This document shows positions 22,296 through 47,409 of a stretch of 64,000 nt of DNA, in pieces. The DNA lies in the IMG/VR virus record IMGVR_UViG_3300028837_003833, positions 62,001-126,000 of that record. One strand, 5' to 3'. The notes beneath the pieces were generated by a model. The model searched no databases, had not been told where the DNA came from, and saw only the letters and a program-made list of their open reading frames with translations. Made by a program: the position numbers and the translations under genes. This stretch comes from a virus. The stretch's first letter is position 1; each line of letters starts with the position of its first letter.

Positions 22296-24506
22296 TTAAA
22301 GACTCTGTCTCAAATTCAATGTTACTACAATCCAGTCTAAAGGAAACACTGGGCTGTAATATGCTTCAACATCAAGAGTACTTGGATCTTGAACATTCTG
22401 AGACACATTAATTCCTGTAAAATCAACAATGAGTTCTCTCTTTTTGAGAGATTTGAAGTATGCCCCAACAGAATCACTAACCTGTGAACGCATCTTAGGA
22501 AGATTCTTAACACCAATGTATCTATCAAGAGCCCTTCTCATACCTTGCTGTACAAAATGCTTAACTTCCACAATTCTTGGATTTCTTGTTAAAGCAGTTG
22601 AAGTATCTGAAGTAAGATAAAAGAGAATCTTGATAACCGGCGTTTGTTCCTCAAGAACAGTACAGCCTGCATTAGCAACCAAAGCAGCGTTAACATTGTC
22701 CAATCTTCGATACAATCTCTTAAATCCTACTATAGTAGAATTTGTAAGAGTAGTAGCAATATCAGAAACTGGGGAAACATCGCGACCCGCTACCGCCGCA
22801 GCAATTATCGAACCATCAACAACATATTCAACTTCATTACCATAAGCATCTGTAATGCCTACAATCGCTCCATCAGGATAGATCGGTGTAAGCTTCTCAG
22901 TCTTAAGAGCACGAACTGAATTAATAACCTGATCAGGTGTCGTCCCAACAGCAAAACCAAAGATACTTGTTCTCTCATTTTTATAACGAATACTTGATTG
23001 TATCGCATTTGAAGTCTTGAGATAACTTATAACCTCGGAATTTGTAGTCAATGCCTGCATCAATGTAGGTCTCAAACCATTTGGAAGAGGTTCATTGAAA
23101 GCATCAATACCATCAATATAATCCTGCACTGATCCATCAGTACCACCAGTAACTCTCTGGATTTGCTTAATTGCTACTGCCTGAGCACCATTAAGAAATG
23201 CCAAGTTAGCAGCCATCGTACATTTGTTATTAATATCCATAGGACCAAAGTACTTAACAACATCTCTCATGTTAGTGAGGAATTTAGCAGTATAATCCGT
23301 TTTTACTTTATCAAAAGTTACATAGTACATATCACCATTCGCAGGCTCATTACCACTCTTATTGAAAGTGTTAATGATAACAGTATCATCAGTATTATCT
23401 ACTGAACCACCACTTGTAGTAAGAACTGTTAAATTGATACCAGGAATAACTCTTACATTATCTGAAGCAGCCGTAATATAAAGCTTTTGAGTAGCATCAG
23501 ACACAGTAGGATCACCAATGTCATATATAACAGTAGTGCCTGCTGCTGGATTAAATGCACCAGTGTCACCAGAAAAAGTGACTCTGAAACCAGTAGTAGG
23601 ATCAATGTATGTCTTACCTGTGTATCCAACATTCTGATTGTAAGTAATCACTGAACCAGTTCTTCCCGGAAGAAGAAAAGTAGTACCAAGAAGAGATGTA
23701 ACAGTGAAACTACCCGCACCATCAAAAGTACAAATCACTCTCTCTACAGATGCTTTTAAAGGATCTACTAGAAAATTATCTGTTCCTGCTCCTGAATAAA
23801 CCGGAGTGACAGTACCTCCAATATGAGAAACTTCAAGACCATTACCAGTAACTCTTGATTCAATGGTGTATTTACCAACACCAGCAGCACCAGGAACTCT
23901 ATTTGTCATCGTCCAAACATCATCTATAAGATTATTCTCAGAGTATGAAACATAAACGATTTCTTCAAGAGCTTGTGAGGGTGAAGTAGTTAAAGTAATC
24001 TGATTCCCATCAATTTTTGTTACTGTAACCGGTCCAGAGGCTAATGCGTTAATCCATGTATCACCTATATAAGCAATGATATCTGCTGGGTCCTCAGTAG
24101 CTTTACTTGATCCAGATCCATCAACTGGGGTCGTAGGAAGTACGAAAACTTTATTACCATCAAGGTTAACCTCTTCACCATTAGCATTAACCTGAGTAAC
24201 TCCAGCAATAGTGTATGGTGTCAGAGGATCTGCTGCCCGACCATATACTACAGTATCAGTAATACTTAAATCAACATTATCTAATAGAGGATCTGATCCT
24301 GCAGTATATAAACCCTGTGCAGCACTCTGTGAGGCTCCCCAATGAACTTGATTATAACCTGCTAAAACGCAGTCATTACCAATCGAAAAGTCATTAGTAT
24401 CCTGACTCAAACCAACTTTCTGATGAAACTGCTGGAGCACTTTGAAGTGTAAATGTTCCTTCAGAACCGTAAAGATGAGTAACTGTGACCTCAGAACCAT
24501 CAACAA
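22296..24506 (-). CDS. Contractile tail sheath protein, C-terminal part (frame-disrupted)
   Basis: The coding part starts at about 24405 in this frame (TNDFSIGNDCVLAG); the residues before it, to the formal ATG at 24506, are out-of-frame reading of the upstream segment. The C-terminal 250 residues carry the sheath signature region: CTVLEEQTPVIKILFYLTSD, RNPRIVEVKHFVQQGMRRAL, DRYIGVKNLPKMR, and a final DWIVVTLNL strand, which in contractile sheaths forms the conserved core around the tube. A large insertion of beta modules precedes it. See the entry at 24394-25149 for the N-terminal part. Confidence 0.8.
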   Translation of the reverse strand: MLMVLRSQLLIFTVLKEHLHFKVLQQFHQKVGLSQDTNDFSIGNDCVLAGYNQVHWGASQSAAQGLYTAGSDPLLDNVDLSITDTVVYGRAADPLTPYTIAGVTQVNANGEEVNLDGNKVFVLPTTPVDGSGSSKATEDPADIIAYIGDTWINALASGPVTVTKIDGNQITLTTSPSQALEEIVYVSYSENNLIDDVWTMTNRVPGAAGVGKYTIESRVTGNGLEVSHIGGTVTPVYSGAGTDNFLVDPLKASVERVICTFDGAGSFTVTSLLGTTFLLPGRTGSVITYNQNVGYTGKTYIDPTTGFRVTFSGDTGAFNPAAGTTVIYDIGDPTVSDATQKLYITAASDNVRVIPGINLTVLTTSGGSVDNTDDTVIINTFNKSGNEPANGDMYYVTFDKVKTDYTAKFLTNMRDVVKYFGPMDINNKCTMAANLAFLNGAQAVAIKQIQRVTGGTDGSVQDYIDGIDAFNEPLPNGLRPTLMQALTTNSEVISYLKTSNAIQSSIRYKNERTSIFGFAVGTTPDQVINSVRALKTEKLTPIYPDGAIVGITDAYGNEVEYVVDGSIIAAAVAGRDVSPVSDIATTLTNSTIVGFKRLYRRLDNVNAALVANAGCTVLEEQTPVIKILFYLTSDTSTALTRNPRIVEVKHFVQQGMRRALDRYIGVKNLPKMRSQVSDSVGAYFKSLKKRELIVDFTGINVSQNVQDPSTLDVEAYYSPVFPLDWIVVTLNLRQSL

Positions 24507-25149
24507 AAACCTGGAAGACTCTTACAGTACGTTCATACTCATCACCGATAACTGCTGGATCAGGATTATATAGAATAGTAGTAGTAGCTGTAATATCAGT
24601 ATCAACAGCAGATCTACCACCATTGTCACCTTTTACAATTCTTGAACTATCTACTTTAAAACTCGTAGCAGTACCATCTACTTGATCAGAGATATCCTCT
24701 TTTTCAATATAAGTATCACGACGCTTGAAATAATAATTAGCTCTTACTTCATCATCATCTGCTGGAATTTGTACAAGAGTTACTTCCCCCGTTAATCCAT
24801 TCACTGAATTAACCGCCACATTCTGACCATTTATCGTGACAATTACATTATTAGGACTAGTAGCTACTTTTCCGCTTCCATCACCAGTTACTATCGGAAA
24901 ATTAGCAACTGTTAATACATTCTCTGTACCCGTAAACTGTGAGCTTTTATCTTCATCAAGGATAAGGTTATCAGCAATAGCTGATGAACCTCTAACCATC
25001 TCGAAGTTACCAACTCGAACAGTTTCAGCAGATACGCCAACAAAGGCAGGTATACGAATATCACCAGCTGAATTAGCACCCGCTGCTTCAGTAGTAGTTT
25101 CAACGTATACACCTGGAAATACGAAACTCTCTAAAGGTCCCATTGCCAT
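24394..25149 (-). CDS. Contractile tail sheath protein, N-terminal part (frame-disrupted)
   Basis: 251 residues beginning MAMGPLESFVFPGVYVETTTEA; 'PGVYVE' near the N-terminus is the classic start of phage sheath proteins. It ends by running into TAC-TAA at about 24394, whereas skipping one base there continues directly as SG-TNDFSIGND in the frame of the next entry. The joined sheath would be about 950 residues, long for the family because of inserted beta modules (VTINGQNV...VNGLTGEVTL...VRANYYF). Good ribosome site AAGGAG. A natural two-protein sheath is unlikely because the second ORF has no credible start. Confidence 0.8.
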   Translation of the reverse strand: MAMGPLESFVFPGVYVETTTEAAGANSAGDIRIPAFVGVSAETVRVGNFEMVRGSSAIADNLILDEDKSSQFTGTENVLTVANFPIVTGDGSGKVATSPNNVIVTINGQNVAVNSVNGLTGEVTLVQIPADDDEVRANYYFKRRDTYIEKEDISDQVDGTATSFKVDSSRIVKGDNGGRSAVDTDITATTTILYNPDPAVIGDEYERTVRVFQVFVDGSEVTVTHLYGSEGTFTLQSAPAVSSESWFESGY

Positions 25150-27824: not shown

Positions 27825-29924
27825 TTATTCATTCATAGCAGCAATAAGAAGACCTTTAGCCACATCTCCTAAAGGATCACTAGCCATACGTATCTCTGAA
27901 ATACCTATCGGAAAATCCACCTCTTTATCAAATTCTTTTTTGAAGAACTCAAGGAAATTTTTAGCCTTTGAGGTACCACCACTGATAATCCATGGAATCT
28001 CATCAGGAAGTTCGATAGCACTATTATCTTTCTTGAACTCTTTCTTTACGCTATCAATAATATAATGTATAAGATTCTTGTAGTATACAATAATTGCTTC
28101 TCTTTCTCTCAACTGCTTCGGATCACCATCTGTAGGATCAAGAAGATTAACTCCTTTTTCCTTTATAGACATAAGTCTGGTAGCAGTGCTTCCAATAGCT
28201 TTTGAGGCAGACTGATCGACCCAATCACCTGATCTTGAAACAGAAAATGCCATACCAACCATAGTCTGGTATACAAGGGCGGTATTCACCATCCCTGCTC
28301 CACAGTTATGTAACGAAAAACCAGGGAGACAAAAAGAATGGTCCTCCCCCTCAATTACAGAAACATCATATACTTTTCCCCTATATTTTGACACTCCTAT
28401 TGATGAAATACATGCCACGCTACTTCCGTAATTACATGCTTTCTTATTACCTATAGTCCTATGGTCTATCCAATCTGTAAAATTTTTAGCTTCTATCCCA
28501 CTAACATTAATACTATAAGCTTGTTTTTTACCCTCTATTACCCTACCATCTTCTACAATCCCCGATATTCTTGGTTCGCTTATGTGATAAGATGGGCACA
28601 TCCCTAATCTTTGCATAGAGAGGTACACAAACTGGCTTAAAGACGGGCTTGTATTATCAAAACCTACATGATTCTTATTTTTATTGATATTACCATCAGT
28701 AGTTATCAGCCCCACCAACAAGCATCTTAAGACTTGATCATTCAAACTACCTATTGACCACGGAAGCCTCTTTACTCCATTTTCATCATAACAGTTCTTT
28801 TTCAGCCAAGTTAAAAAACCTTTTGAATACATTTTTACCCTGACAGAATTATCCCCGTGAGGATATACCGTTATTGTTTTACCAAAAAGGCTATCAACTA
28901 ACATTCCAATTCTATCTATAACATCATTCTCCTCTTTATTCAGTGTCCAATTGATCTCTCCATTAATTTCTTCTACAGAGCCATCTCCAGCAAATAAGCC
29001 TATCAACTCTGCCATTTCGTCTGTTAATCTATAAGTTGATAACTTTTTCTCTTTAGATGGGGTGATTCTATCTTCTGTACATATATAAGGTCGATCTGAA
29101 AAATCATAGTTATCCCATGTCTGTGAAACACACCAGCCTTCTTTAACATCTTTAGCGGGAATATACCCCCAAATTCCATCCCCTTTATTACACCATATTA
29201 AATGATCTTCTGTAACTGAAACTTTCCCGTTACCATATGCCCAAAAAGTGTATATATCTCCGTCATAATCCCTACTGGTTGGTGATGCCTCACGCCATAT
29301 CCCAGATTTTGTTAATATTTTCATGCCTTGTTTAAAATCTTCGATATTAATAAAACCTACATCAGAAAATATTTTTTGACCTGGAGTTAAACAGGAAGAG
29401 GCCAGCGCAGTAAACCCATCTTTAGCACAATTAGAATATACTATTGCAGCTGCTTCATTCATCGCAGTCGCTTTGTATCCGAATGACTCCACGATCTTCT
29501 TGAATATAGCTTCATGATAAATAACATCCATATTTTTATCAATTGACTTTGCCGGAACAGAAAAGAATACCGATTCGTTCTCTACTTTTGGGTCCTTAAG
29601 AATATTCTTAAGAAGAATTACTAACATCTTCTCAGCATCGTGCTCACCCGAAGATATAACACCCTGACTCAAAGGTCTACGAGCTTCTCTCTTAAGAAGA
29701 TTTGCTACGCTGAGTGCTGGTTCCCCAACAATATAAATACTGTCCTTTTCCTGTACGTAGGAAACACTGGACATCTTAAGCATGTTCAGTATTGATTGAT
29801 CAGCCTCTACATCAAGAAAAGCGTCACGTATATATTTCAAGTCCACATCTGCGGATTCACTCTTTGGATCTTTTGTTGCACTAACTAAGTAACATGTCCC
29901 TATATCAAGTCCAACAGCACACAT
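27825..29924 (-). CDS. Actin-like ATPase (ParM/Alp-like) interrupted by an intein
   Basis: 699 codons. Extein: N-terminal phosphate loop VGLDIGTCYLVSA (residues 4-16), a connecting helix MNEAAAIVYSN, second phosphate motif ASS-CGAGMVNTALVY and the C-terminal adenosine motif PWIISGGTSKAKNF. These are the actin/ParM fold landmarks; spliced length is about 336 residues, normal for ParM-like proteins. An intein of 363 residues (C178-N540) separates ASS from CGAGM, inside the phosphate-2 loop, so the host protein cannot bind ATP until spliced. Phage actin-like filaments segregate or position DNA; that role here is inferred. It is the third gene after the Asp/Thr-rich and coiled-coil genes and ends at a terminator. 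Confidence 0.88.
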   Translation of the reverse strand: MCAVGLDIGTCYLVSATKDPKSESADVDLKYIRDAFLDVEADQSILNMLKMSSVSYVQEKDSIYIVGEPALSVANLLKREARRPLSQGVISSGEHDAEKMLVILLKNILKDPKVENESVFFSVPAKSIDKNMDVIYHEAIFKKIVESFGYKATAMNEAAAIVYSNCAKDGFTALASSCLTPGQKIFSDVGFINIEDFKQGMKILTKSGIWREASPTSRDYDGDIYTFWAYGNGKVSVTEDHLIWCNKGDGIWGYIPAKDVKEGWCVSQTWDNYDFSDRPYICTEDRITPSKEKKLSTYRLTDEMAELIGLFAGDGSVEEINGEINWTLNKEENDVIDRIGMLVDSLFGKTITVYPHGDNSVRVKMYSKGFLTWLKKNCYDENGVKRLPWSIGSLNDQVLRCLLVGLITTDGNINKNKNHVGFDNTSPSLSQFVYLSMQRLGMCPSYHISEPRISGIVEDGRVIEGKKQAYSINVSGIEAKNFTDWIDHRTIGNKKACNYGSSVACISSIGVSKYRGKVYDVSVIEGEDHSFCLPGFSLHNCGAGMVNTALVYQTMVGMAFSVSRSGDWVDQSASKAIGSTATRLMSIKEKGVNLLDPTDGDPKQLREREAIIVYYKNLIHYIIDSVKKEFKKDNSAIELPDEIPWIISGGTSKAKNFLEFFKKEFDKEVDFPIGISEIRMASDPLGDVAKGLLIAAMNE
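28305..29393 (-). mobile_element. LAGLIDADG intein in the actin-like ATPase
   Basis: Codons 178-540. Begins C-LTPGQKIFSD (Cys1, block A), has TEDHLIWC (block B, T..H), two LAGLIDADG motifs LIGLFAGDGSV and LLVGLITTDGNI, block F YDVSVIEGEDHSF and ends LHN followed by Cys+1 of the extein. All splicing residues (C1, block-B His, penultimate His, final Asn, C+1) are present, so splicing and homing are both expected to be possible. Confidence 0.93.
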
Positions 29925-43626: not shown

Positions 43627-46600
43627 TTATTTATTTATACCAAATTGTTTAACCCATTCCTCTGCAATATTCTTCCAACTATACTCCTTCATCTTATCAT
43701 AAGCCTTTTTAGCCCATTCTAATCTATAAGACTCATCAGAAAGCATCTTAACTGCTTCCTCTACAAACTTAGTAGCATATGAAGGAGGAAGATCACCATT
43801 TCGGGATAACCCCTCAGGAGAAAGTAAAATACCTGCATCCCCTACCGTAGTCTGCAGACCACCATAGTCCGTAGTTATGATTGGACATTTAGATAATCCT
43901 GCAGACACTGCGGTTATGCAATTATGCACTATGACATTATTAGCTACATAAGTATTATCATCTTTAACCTCTAAATTGTACACAGGACCCACATATCTCT
44001 CTTTTTTATTAGACACGATAGGTAGATATGCATATTGATTATCTTGAAGAGCTGCTTGACCAGTACTCTTCTTATCTTCAATTTTATATCCTATAAATTT
44101 AAAAAGTTCAGGGTTTTGACTTAATGAACAACACAGACTATAAGCAACTAAGAATTTCTTTCCTCTTTTTATCTTTGTTACTCCTCCCTCTTTATACTTT
44201 AATACCTGACTCTTCTTACTTGAAGATAATGAAGAAACACAATTAAACTTTAAGAGAACATCAAACAAGTCAATTACTAATTGCCTACTAGCACACTCAA
44301 GAACAGTAGTCGCCTTACTCTGATACCCATCCCCTCTTAGTATACCTGAAATAATATATTTCAATAATTCTGGTGATAGATCTTTAACCCATTGAGGTAT
44401 ACATTTATGTCGAGCACCATCCCCAAAGTTATTAACCATAAAACGACCCAAAATCGCCGAAGACATATTAACAGTCATACCCTCTGTATCAGGACTGAGA
44501 CATACCCAAGGTTTTAACCCTAAGCGTTCTCCTATCGTACATAAAAAATCCGATACATCGACCTCCTTTTTATGTAAAGAAAACGTAAGAGTAGTTTTAC
44601 CATCGTAAGATCCTTCTGAAATAAACCAACCACAAAATTCTAAAAAATCTTCAGTAATAACAAAGTCCCTTATCTTTGTAGCACGATTTATGATAACTCT
44701 TTTGGAAGCATGATCTTTACAAAGATGTTTTCTACTATAAGCATCAATCATACTACAGACTTTACCATCAATTAAAACATCTGAACTATAATCGGAGAAA
44801 TTCCCTGGAGTATTCTCCTTCTTATTTTTTGGGTAAAGCAGATAATCTCCTTTATTTAAGGATTCTGCAGGTAACCATTCTGAATTATAAGGTTCAGATA
44901 TCTTCCAACATTCTTTTTTAGTCCTATACTCTTTATGGTACTTAAAATTAGAATCACATTTTAGAGCTCTCTTAGTACATGGAGTTTGTTGCATTCTTAC
45001 ACAATGTAATGATTCAGAATTCTTAGGTAATACCAAGATACTATGATTACTTGTTATCTTAAGGGGATCCATAAGATATTTAACATTGATATTGTTAATG
45101 TCCTCATCAATATCTCTTACAAAAACATGCGTAACAGGTTTAATGTTTCCCGTGTGTGTTAGCACTTTTGTACCTAAATTAATAGACTCTATAGAAAGGT
45201 CTCCATTAACAGAATTAATTTGTGTACCAGGAAGGCAGCAGAACGTTTCACTGAACCAAGTAGGATACAACCACACTTTAGATTCTTTCTCATACTCGGC
45301 TAACTGTTTCTTACTCACCCTATCAGCATATTTTACACCAGGCTGATTCATAAGTTCTTTAATCTCTGAAATAAATTTCAAAGACTCCTGATCTCCTCTT
45401 TTACGAGCCATAGACTCCCAATTAAAAAATCCATAAGCTACCACAAGCTCAAAATCAGGAATCTCTTTTCGTATCCGAGGCATTATTTGCAATAACTGAT
45501 AAAGACCTCGATCGGGACTTGAAGAATACACCGATTGATTTTTCTTTTTATACGTATCGACATCCTCATATAAACTAAAATCTTGACCATTTGCCGTAAG
45601 AAACATCTTATCACTAATAATCCCATGGTGATTCATAATAAATCTTTTATGCCATTCAGATAAATAAGCATATTTATCTACCCGCCAAGTCATAGTATCA
45701 TAGTTTTTATCCCCTGACAACCAAATGTCATGTATCATCACAAAATTAAGAAGTGAATGAATATTCATCTTCAATGGTTCAGTAGAACGAGAAACTATGA
45801 AAAAATCTATGACATCATATTGAATATCATTTTGAATATTCTTATAATCCCGATATATGACATCCCCGATTTTATTACCATTATCATCAAGAACAGGATC
45901 AAGAAGCATACCTTCTTTATCATCTATCAAGAGATCGTTATAAATTGTTGTCCTAAAACCCAATTTAACGAACTCTATAGCAAGATATGATGCCCATGTT
46001 TCTGATCCAGCCATACCCTCATCAACTTTAGCTTTGTTCCAGGGTTCCCATGCAGGACCAGTCCATATGACTACTCGTTTCTTTTCCCATTTTTTCTTCA
46101 TGATCGTATGATTCGTGACATCTTCTTTTCTATAAGATTCCAAATTCTCTAATTGATAAGCTCCCCGACTCACACCTCCAAAGTGAAAAACAAAAGAATC
46201 TATAGCTTGACCACACGCATACCCAAATCTACTCAGTCGCATCATAAGATCGAAATCCTCACAACCATTCTTATAGATAGGATCAAACAACCCTACCTCA
46301 TTAACCGCACACCGAGCAAAAATAGTAGCATAAGCTGCTATCCATTCTTGTTTTACAAAAACATCTTTATTCTTTTTATTAGATTCCTCCATAAACTTAT
46401 AAAGTTCATCTACATGAGGTTTTATCTCATCAATTTTCATAGCAGGATGAAGATCGATATTAGATTTCTCTAAGAGCATTGGATATGAAGGTTTGTTAGG
46501 AGCACCGTGTAACCATCCACGGTCACAATTACTAAGTACACCACATGATGCCAATCTATTAACACTTTCCATTTTCTTAACGAGATTAGTCAACCAGTAC

Positions 46601-47409
46601 TTAGAAACGATAACATCTGAATTCAGGATAACAAATAATTTTGTATTAGAAGCATTAATACCCGCATTACACGTCTCTGAAAAGGACAGTCTTATCTTTG
46701 TATCCCCTAATACAGTTATACCCTTTAAAGTGTTAAGGTACTCCCAGGTTTCCTCATTACTCCCTCCATCAGAAATAATAATATGAAATGGATAAAGAGT
46801 ATTCATGAGTATTGAAGAAATACACATCTTAAGATATTCAACATTATTATAACTGGTAATAATAATATCTACTATCGATCGATTCTTTACATCTATTTTT
46901 TCTGGAGGACTTTTAAATACAAGTTGGTCATTTATGAGATTTGTGAAAACCTCTTGATACTGTTTAGTGATTGCAGAAATACTATATCCCTCCACAGATT
47001 TCTTACCCGCTTCACCAATTTTTTTCCTTAGATTACTATCTTTAAGTTTTATAAGAGCTTTACGCCAATCTTCCTGTGTCTCACAGATAAATCCATTCTC
47101 ACCATCCACAACAATTTCTTTATAAGCTTGTAGAGGAGAACAAATAACCGGTAATCCAAGAGCCATAGCAGTAGTCGCCTTTACCGAACTCTTTGCCGGT
47201 TGAACATCTACTCGTTGTGGACAAAGTACTACATCACACTCATTCATTACATCTGACCAATTATCCAAGGTCCAGGGGTGTGTAGCGTTATCCCATTCAG
47301 TGCATAAAATAATCTCATAACCTGCACTCTCTATAGCATCCCGTAGCCAATCACTAATAAGCCACGAATTTCCTCCCATACCAAAAAATCCAGCTTTTAA
47401 TTTATTCAT
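43627..47409 (-). CDS. Multidomain glycosyltransferase interrupted by an intein
   Basis: 1,260 codons. Residues 1-160: a GT-B C-terminal-like half (VVLCPQRVDVQP, ALGLPVICSP, VVDGENGF, RKKIGEAGKKS). Residues about 178-440: GT2 domain (VDIIITSYNN, IISDGGSNEETW, FVILNSDV as the acidic metal motif, GCEDFDLMMRLSRFG). Residues about 445-724 and 1164-1260: GT4-type domain (GMAGSETWASYLA, WFSETFC-CITAVSAG, TTDYGGLQTTVGDAG). Codons 725-1163 are an intein placed at the conserved E-containing motif. It lies downstream of a broken HNH gene and another transferase; residues 1-20 (KLKAGFFGMGGNS) could continue that upstream protein. Likely decorates a virion or surface glycan; acceptor unknown. Confidence 0.85.
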   Translation of the reverse strand: MNKLKAGFFGMGGNSWLISDWLRDAIESAGYEIILCTEWDNATHPWTLDNWSDVMNECDVVLCPQRVDVQPAKSSVKATTAMALGLPVICSPLQAYKEIVVDGENGFICETQEDWRKALIKLKDSNLRKKIGEAGKKSVEGYSISAITKQYQEVFTNLINDQLVFKSPPEKIDVKNRSIVDIIITSYNNVEYLKMCISSILMNTLYPFHIIISDGGSNEETWEYLNTLKGITVLGDTKIRLSFSETCNAGINASNTKLFVILNSDVIVSKYWLTNLVKKMESVNRLASCGVLSNCDRGWLHGAPNKPSYPMLLEKSNIDLHPAMKIDEIKPHVDELYKFMEESNKKNKDVFVKQEWIAAYATIFARCAVNEVGLFDPIYKNGCEDFDLMMRLSRFGYACGQAIDSFVFHFGGVSRGAYQLENLESYRKEDVTNHTIMKKKWEKKRVVIWTGPAWEPWNKAKVDEGMAGSETWASYLAIEFVKLGFRTTIYNDLLIDDKEGMLLDPVLDDNGNKIGDVIYRDYKNIQNDIQYDVIDFFIVSRSTEPLKMNIHSLLNFVMIHDIWLSGDKNYDTMTWRVDKYAYLSEWHKRFIMNHHGIISDKMFLTANGQDFSLYEDVDTYKKKNQSVYSSSPDRGLYQLLQIMPRIRKEIPDFELVVAYGFFNWESMARKRGDQESLKFISEIKELMNQPGVKYADRVSKKQLAEYEKESKVWLYPTWFSETFCCLPGTQINSVNGDLSIESINLGTKVLTHTGNIKPVTHVFVRDIDEDINNINVKYLMDPLKITSNHSILVLPKNSESLHCVRMQQTPCTKRALKCDSNFKYHKEYRTKKECWKISEPYNSEWLPAESLNKGDYLLYPKNKKENTPGNFSDYSSDVLIDGKVCSMIDAYSRKHLCKDHASKRVIINRATKIRDFVITEDFLEFCGWFISEGSYDGKTTLTFSLHKKEVDVSDFLCTIGERLGLKPWVCLSPDTEGMTVNMSSAILGRFMVNNFGDGARHKCIPQWVKDLSPELLKYIISGILRGDGYQSKATTVLECASRQLVIDLFDVLLKFNCVSSLSSSKKSQVLKYKEGGVTKIKRGKKFLVAYSLCCSLSQNPELFKFIGYKIEDKKSTGQAALQDNQYAYLPIVSNKKERYVGPVYNLEVKDDNTYVANNVIVHNCITAVSAGLSKCPIITTDYGGLQTTVGDAGILLSPEGLSRNGDLPPSYATKFVEEAVKMLSDESYRLEWAKKAYDKMKEYSWKNIAEEWVKQFGINK
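43921..45237 (-). mobile_element. LAGLIDADG intein in the glycosyltransferase
   Basis: Codons 725-1163 (439 residues). Starts C-LPGTQINSVNGDLSI (Cys1, block A), has TSNHSILVL (block B), two LAGLIDADG-type motifs FCGWFISEGSYDG and IISGILRGDGYQS, block F 'YNLEVKDDNTYVANNVIV' and ends HN with Cys+1 (CITAVSAG). All splicing residues are present. The insertion point is the GT-B motif ETFC, part of the nucleotide-sugar site. Confidence 0.93.

Follow-up and report, generated by a model that had tools for sequence, protein, structure and literature searches.

A predicted LAGLIDADG intein at a recurrent site in the phosphate-2 loop of phage volactin-family actins

The window analysed here is a stretch of 64,000 nucleotides (positions 62,001 to 126,000) of the IMG/VR virus record IMGVR_UViG_3300028837_003833. 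On its minus strand a single open reading frame, with neither stop nor frameshift, was found to encode an N-extein, an intein and a C-extein in one chain of 699 residues (Table 1). The intein runs from CLTPGQ to SLHN and is followed by Cys as the +1 residue; its Cys1 codon was located at 29393-29391 and its terminal Asn codon at 28307-28305, so the interval of 28305-29393 and the length of 363 residues given in the original prediction were exact, as was the split between ASS and CGAGMVNTAL. When the intein was removed in silico, a 336-aa actin was obtained, which showed no gap at the junction when compared with intein-free phage homologues of approximately 70-86% identity. The insert is precise, because these homologues (e.g. 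L001-L004 and L006) pass uninterrupted through the junction, L001 reading LASSF-GAGMVNT. It is also far beyond chance, since a homologue that is 86-87% identical lacks exactly that segment and the same boundary recurs in 22 viral contigs and one MAG contig. One actin copy was found in the 135,493-base source record, an IMG/VR viral contig.

Table 1. Coordinates of the intein-bearing actin gene, its parts and its neighbours in the window
Feature	Position	Strand	Remarks
Tail sheath gene	22296..25149	-	about 2.1 kb downstream of actin in relatives
Next gene, 484 aa	26248..27702	-	no Pfam or PHROG match
Precursor ORF	27825..29924	-	699 aa + stop codon; Pfam Volactin in two stretches, LAGLIDADG_3 between
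N-extein	29394..29924	-	177 codons; phosphate-1 GLDIGT, connect-1 NE; C-terminal end FTALASS
Intein (predicted)	28305..29393	-	363 codons (residues 178-540), Cys1 to His-Asn
C-extein	27828..28304	-	159 codons; first residues CGAGMVNTAL
Actin phosphate-1 motif GLDIGT	29895..29912	-	D7/G9/T10 invariant in alignment
+1 Cys codon TGT	28302..28304	-	mostly Phe (TTT/TTC) among close intein-free relatives
Phosphate-2 loop remainder CGAGMVN	28284..28304	-	aligned to MamK IGAGTTD after Asp
Actin adenosine motif SGGTS	27969..27983	-	G286/G287/T288 invariant in alignment
Intein block A, CLTPGQKIFSDVG	29355..29393	-	alignment of same-site inteins
Intein block B, T61-E-D-H64	29202..29213	-	H64 invariant in 18 inteins
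LAGLIDADG motif 1, LIGLFAGDGSV (Asp137)	28974..29006	-	intein alignment and Pfam
LAGLIDADG motif 2, LLVGLITTDGNI (Asp233), incl. LLVGLITTDG	28686..28721	-	intein alignment and Pfam
Intein blocks F and G, KVYDVSVIEGEDHSFCLPGFSLHN	28305..28376	-	intein alignment; NCBIfam intein-containing models match here

Both ends of the 699-aa frame matched the Pfam family Volactin (PF25216; E 8.9e-57, 193 bits where the curated cut-off is 35), and a search of PHROGs gave no family for the window actin. An AlphaFold model was available for the intein-free relative L001 (pLDDT 93, pTM 0.90), and the solved folds nearest to it by Z score were MamK (Z 29.2, 298 residues, 2.9 A), BeeR and MreB. Among the matches listed, MamK, MreB, FtsA and BeeR were the nearest by PDB profile or fold, and ParM was absent. 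The phosphate-1, connect-1, GxG-loop and GG(T) motifs were conserved, and the position of the phosphate-2 Asp was occupied by Ser in 97 of 97 intein-free homologues. From its sequence and modelled structure, the host protein is predicted to be an actin-fold ATPase of the volactin/MamK/MreB-like type. It had earlier been called ParM-like, a label that fits less well: the protein belongs by sequence to Pfam Volactin and by fold lies nearest to MamK, BeeR and MreB, and ParM as the nearest relative found no support in Pfam, the PDB profile search or the fold search among the matches listed. The volactin of Haloferax resembles MreB and forms dynamic filaments with ParM-like filament dynamics (PMC10869688). 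The Haloferax volcanii protein HVO_2015 is of the same Pfam family as the window actin; the phage volactins differ from it in lying beside a tail sheath gene and in carrying, in some cases, inteins, and their polymerisation is putative.

To place the insertion point within the fold, the family profile (laiSfGaGmvNva) was aligned with that of MamK (iivDIGAGTTDIC), and in the L001 model residues 172-177 and 182-188 formed the strands of the phosphate-2 hairpin, with residues 178-181 as its loop. The intein follows residue 177, the Ser at position -1 that corresponds to the phosphate-2 Asp in MamK; on its other side is the residue preceding the invariant GxG. The phosphate-2-loop placement in an actin-like protein, as proposed before, is supported by both the profile alignment and the hairpin of the model. 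Since this loop is interrupted in the precursor, nucleotide-dependent assembly should require splicing, and it is sound to expect that filament formation, itself putative for the phage protein, depends on splicing.

The identity of the insert was assessed in an end-to-end alignment of 18 same-site inteins, the window intein and 17 others. C1, H64, H362 and N363 were invariant, both LAGLIDADG motifs were present in all except one mini-intein, and 17 of the 18 sequences matched Pfam Intein_splicing (E <= 0.01) and 17 of 18 LAGLIDADG_3. The window intein alone matched LAGLIDADG_3 (E 8e-10) and Hom_end and fell below the Intein_splicing threshold, so that the Hint domain is identified here by way of the related inteins; a separate search gave two matches of the LAGLIDADG domain within it. 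A PDB profile search with the intein family retrieved PI-PkoII (2cw7, E 1.8e-15), the Pho RadA intein and PI-SceI. The structure model of the precursor resembled the TliVMA intein, PI-SceI and PI-PfuI in a fold search; its pLDDT was 73, a moderate value, lowest at the junctions and approximately 85-91 in the first part of the endonuclease. The window sequence has the features of a class-1 intein, namely an in-frame insert with continuous flanks, C1, T61xxH64, H362-N363 and the +1 Cys, and the two LAGLIDADG motifs carry the catalytic acidic residues of a homing endonuclease. The element is very probably a class-1 LAGLIDADG (DOD) intein that occupies a phosphate-2-loop hotspot of a volactin-family phage actin. 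The call of an intein with its splicing and LAGLIDADG motifs intact was thereby borne out by conserved splicing residues, precise junctions, profile and fold matches and the alignment with the 17 other inteins.

Where both genes occur, a homologue of the 484-aa gene was the same-strand successor of the actin gene in 77 of 78 loci, at a median distance of 98 nt, and the tail sheath gene lies beyond it. The more divergent intein-bearing actins (L125-L178) were without the sheath operon in BLAST searches, and the operon claim is therefore limited to the window lineage and its intein-free relatives. Within the window the sheath gene is read in two overlapping frames (24394-25149 and 22296-24506), and it is a single ORF in nine of nine relatives checked; the split is either a sequencing error or a real frameshift. 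Relatives of the volactin family were numerous in IMG/VR, with 329 candidates, several of them on contigs of 200-600 kb, and two records of huge phages (485 and 595 kb) also contained members. Two tandem volactin-family genes were seen in Omnitrophota MAG contigs (L099:7989-10532 and L102), and intein-free relatives also in MAGs of Planctomycetota, Acidobacteriota and Alphaproteobacteria.

An intein in a phage actin homologue had been thought unusual, and this view needs revising. The same insertion point had been suggested as something to look for in other phage genes, and a scan with a DNA pattern encoding HN/CGAGM (the slash marks the junction) recovered an intein at exactly the same volactin-family junction in 22 other IMG/VR contigs, some of them near-copies; a further one lies in a MAG contig labelled Neisseriaceae (L114). 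The other inteins of the site were recovered both by this junction pattern and by intein alignment; the window intein sequence, used alone against viral sequences, gave no match. About 50 of the 73 pattern matches were excluded after the frame was read, as no actin sequence surrounded them. The great majority of these were one recurring protein with a native CHNCGAGM, which we take to be primase-like; the match in L156 was a short chance ORF. Cys was the +1 residue in 16 of 16 full-length intein-bearing cases and in 10 of 97 intein-free homologues, the others having Phe (73), Tyr (7), Ala (5) or Leu (2). The association gave a Fisher p of 5e-13 uncorrected for relatedness; approximately four independent phylogenetic contrasts, none opposite in direction, gave a non-significant sign test. 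In the close relatives compared, the +1 codon was TTT or TTC without the intein and TGT or TGC with it, a change from Phe to Cys that would follow from joint transfer of the intein and its catalytic +1 Cys. The 10 intein-free proteins with Cys may be either natural acceptors or footprints of intein loss. At the same junction, a mini-intein of 163 aa (L115:926-1414) was found from which the endonuclease had been deleted in frame and in which all splicing blocks were kept.

In a tree of 97 actins, at least four changes of intein state fell on supported branches, and the window actin was sister to the intein-free L001. An AU test, with groups chosen after the tree had been inspected, rejected the window actin and L180 as one clade (p 2e-90) and all intein-bearing actins together (p 0.0017). 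The intein tree united the phosphate-2-site inteins and that of L206 in one supported group; the same-site inteins fell into three sub-lineages (the window intein with L180; L124; and a clade of 14 members), and the closest inteins found to that of the window were others of the same actin family. The inteins of the 14-member clade are about 54-67% identical and their actins about 30%, which indicates, from these sequence comparisons, repeated horizontal homing within the clade. For the pair of the window and L180 the relation is the opposite, with 52% identity between the inteins and 71% between the exteins, so that this pair alone does not demonstrate transfer. In each of the two domains of the intein, replacement change fell well short of synonymous change, consistent with retained function; as synonymous sites were saturated in the dN/dS analysis, these values speak to purifying constraint only.

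We infer self-splicing of the window intein from intein biochemistry, and DNA cleavage and homing by its endonuclease from its sequence, the discordant trees and intein biochemistry. The 699-aa precursor would be translated whole, and the Hint domain would carry out an N-S acyl shift at Cys1 followed by transesterification to the +1 Cys. Asn363 would then cyclise, and after an S-N shift the extein halves would be ligated into a 336-aa actin reading LASS-CGAGMVN. In the unspliced precursor, 363 residues would split the nucleotide-phosphate loop, and no normal ATP-competent, polymerising actin would be expected. The endonuclease is predicted to cut intein-free alleles at their near-invariant site, and repair would then pass both the intein and the adjoining +1 Cys codon to the recipient; such cut-and-repair homing would explain the sporadic spread of the intein among phages.

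An alternative that we regard as unlikely is that the intein is conditional, with slow or redox- or temperature-sensitive splicing gating the actin, which would be released late together with the neighbouring virion proteins. The catalytic Cys1 and +1 Cys lie within the ATPase active-site loop, the gene shares a conserved operon of structural genes with the tail sheath, L115 retains a splicing-only mini-intein, and other inteins are known to splice conditionally (PMC6195587, PMC5790916). However, most close relatives of the window actin are intein-free, so the intein is not needed for actin function; its distribution and tree are those of a mobile element, and mini-inteins also arise through simple endonuclease loss. 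A more speculative extension, to which we give a still smaller chance, is that the volactin-type actin of the virion-structure operon serves particle assembly, that the recurrent phosphate-2 inteins act as a post-translational timer delaying the actin, and that the L115 mini-intein would be their domesticated state.

That the intein has decayed, with splicing lost and the actin gene dead in the window phage, seems very improbable. Nothing direct speaks for it beyond the greater divergence of the intein than of its host gene relative to L180; against it, no lesion was seen, the frame being free of stops and shifts and every catalytic residue retained, the exteins are under strong constraint (pN 0.19 and pS 0.81 vs L180), and the record has a single actin copy. 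A Hint-like domain of the bacterial intein-like or Hedgehog-like kind, processing the actin without splicing, would share the Hint fold, and the PDB profile search does touch the bacterial intein-like domain 2lwy, but the complete LAGLIDADG domain, the terminal His-Asn, the +1 Cys and an intact C-extein that is continuous with the N-extein in homologues make this reading scarcely credible. An assembly chimera of unrelated metagenome reads, conceivable in that the source is a single 135-kb IMG/VR record whose sheath gene is frameshifted relative to all relatives checked, is refuted for the family by the occurrence of the junction across many samples (22 further viral contigs, one MAG contig), and with a flanking operon order the same as in relatives its probability is negligible for the window.

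The preferred reading, a class-1 homing intein, was compared with known systems. PI-SceI/VMA, PI-PkoII, PI-PfuI and TliVMA share with the window intein Cys1, TxxH, two Asp LAGLIDADG motifs, His-Asn, a +1 nucleophile and the order of the Hint and endonuclease domains; the window intein differs in its actin-family ATPase host and in its low sequence identity to them. Phage proteins with an intein in their ATP-binding loop are familiar; the TerL intein of mycobacteriophages is one, likewise sporadic, carrying a homing endonuclease and interrupting the loop by which an ATPase binds its nucleotide (PMC5050341). Inteins of the TerL type, however, occupy Walker A/B of P-loop NTPases, whereas the host of the window intein has the unrelated actin/Hsp70 fold, with the insertion in its phosphate-2 loop. 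AlpC of prophage CGP3 (PMC4446434) and ParM-like phage proteins are phage-encoded actin-like filament proteins, as the window actin may be. They are not the closest to it by family or fold search. To our knowledge, none of them carries an intein. In the open full-text literature searched, no report was found of an intein in any actin-family protein, and no publication was found on a volactin-family actin beside the tail sheath in large phages. The predicted mechanism is an ordinary one, and the actin host protein apparently new and recurrent.

With these findings the actin fold joins the nucleotide-binding sites colonised by inteins, and this single junction is shared by distinct intein lineages. 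Discussion of the bias of inteins to active-site loops has mostly centred on P-loop NTPases. The matched intein-free, full and mini-intein alleles offer a natural test set for this bias, with which homing-site conservation, selection against imprecise loss and regulation can be tested as candidate causes. A widespread volactin-family actin, adjoining the tail sheath in large phages, is also brought to light.

A volactin of another contig (L206:3338-5557) has an intact SFGAGMCN loop and carries its intein at a second conserved motif, VAR/C...HN/SGDWID, with Ser as the +1 residue; a neighbouring trypsin-like protease ORF (216-2300) also has a LAGLIDADG domain. On the minus strand of the window at 61093-62853, a LAGLIDADG_2 endonuclease (aa 119-278) is fused to a ParB N-terminal domain (aa 428-511), and no intein splicing motifs were seen in this ORF by eye; Rfam gave no group I introns within the window. 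A second window intein of 440 aa (43921-45240, minus strand, within the ORF 43627-47409) matched Hint_2 and Intein_splicing and interrupts a glycosyltransferase, with the junctions SETF/CCLPGTQ...VHN/CITAV. The source record is intein-rich outside the window as well (L235, L236 and L237; host names assigned by eye), with a 963-aa ORF bearing one apparent intein, a family-A-like DNA polymerase bearing two, and an SNF2-like helicase bearing two, one at Walker A (GLGK) and one after the DE of Walker B.
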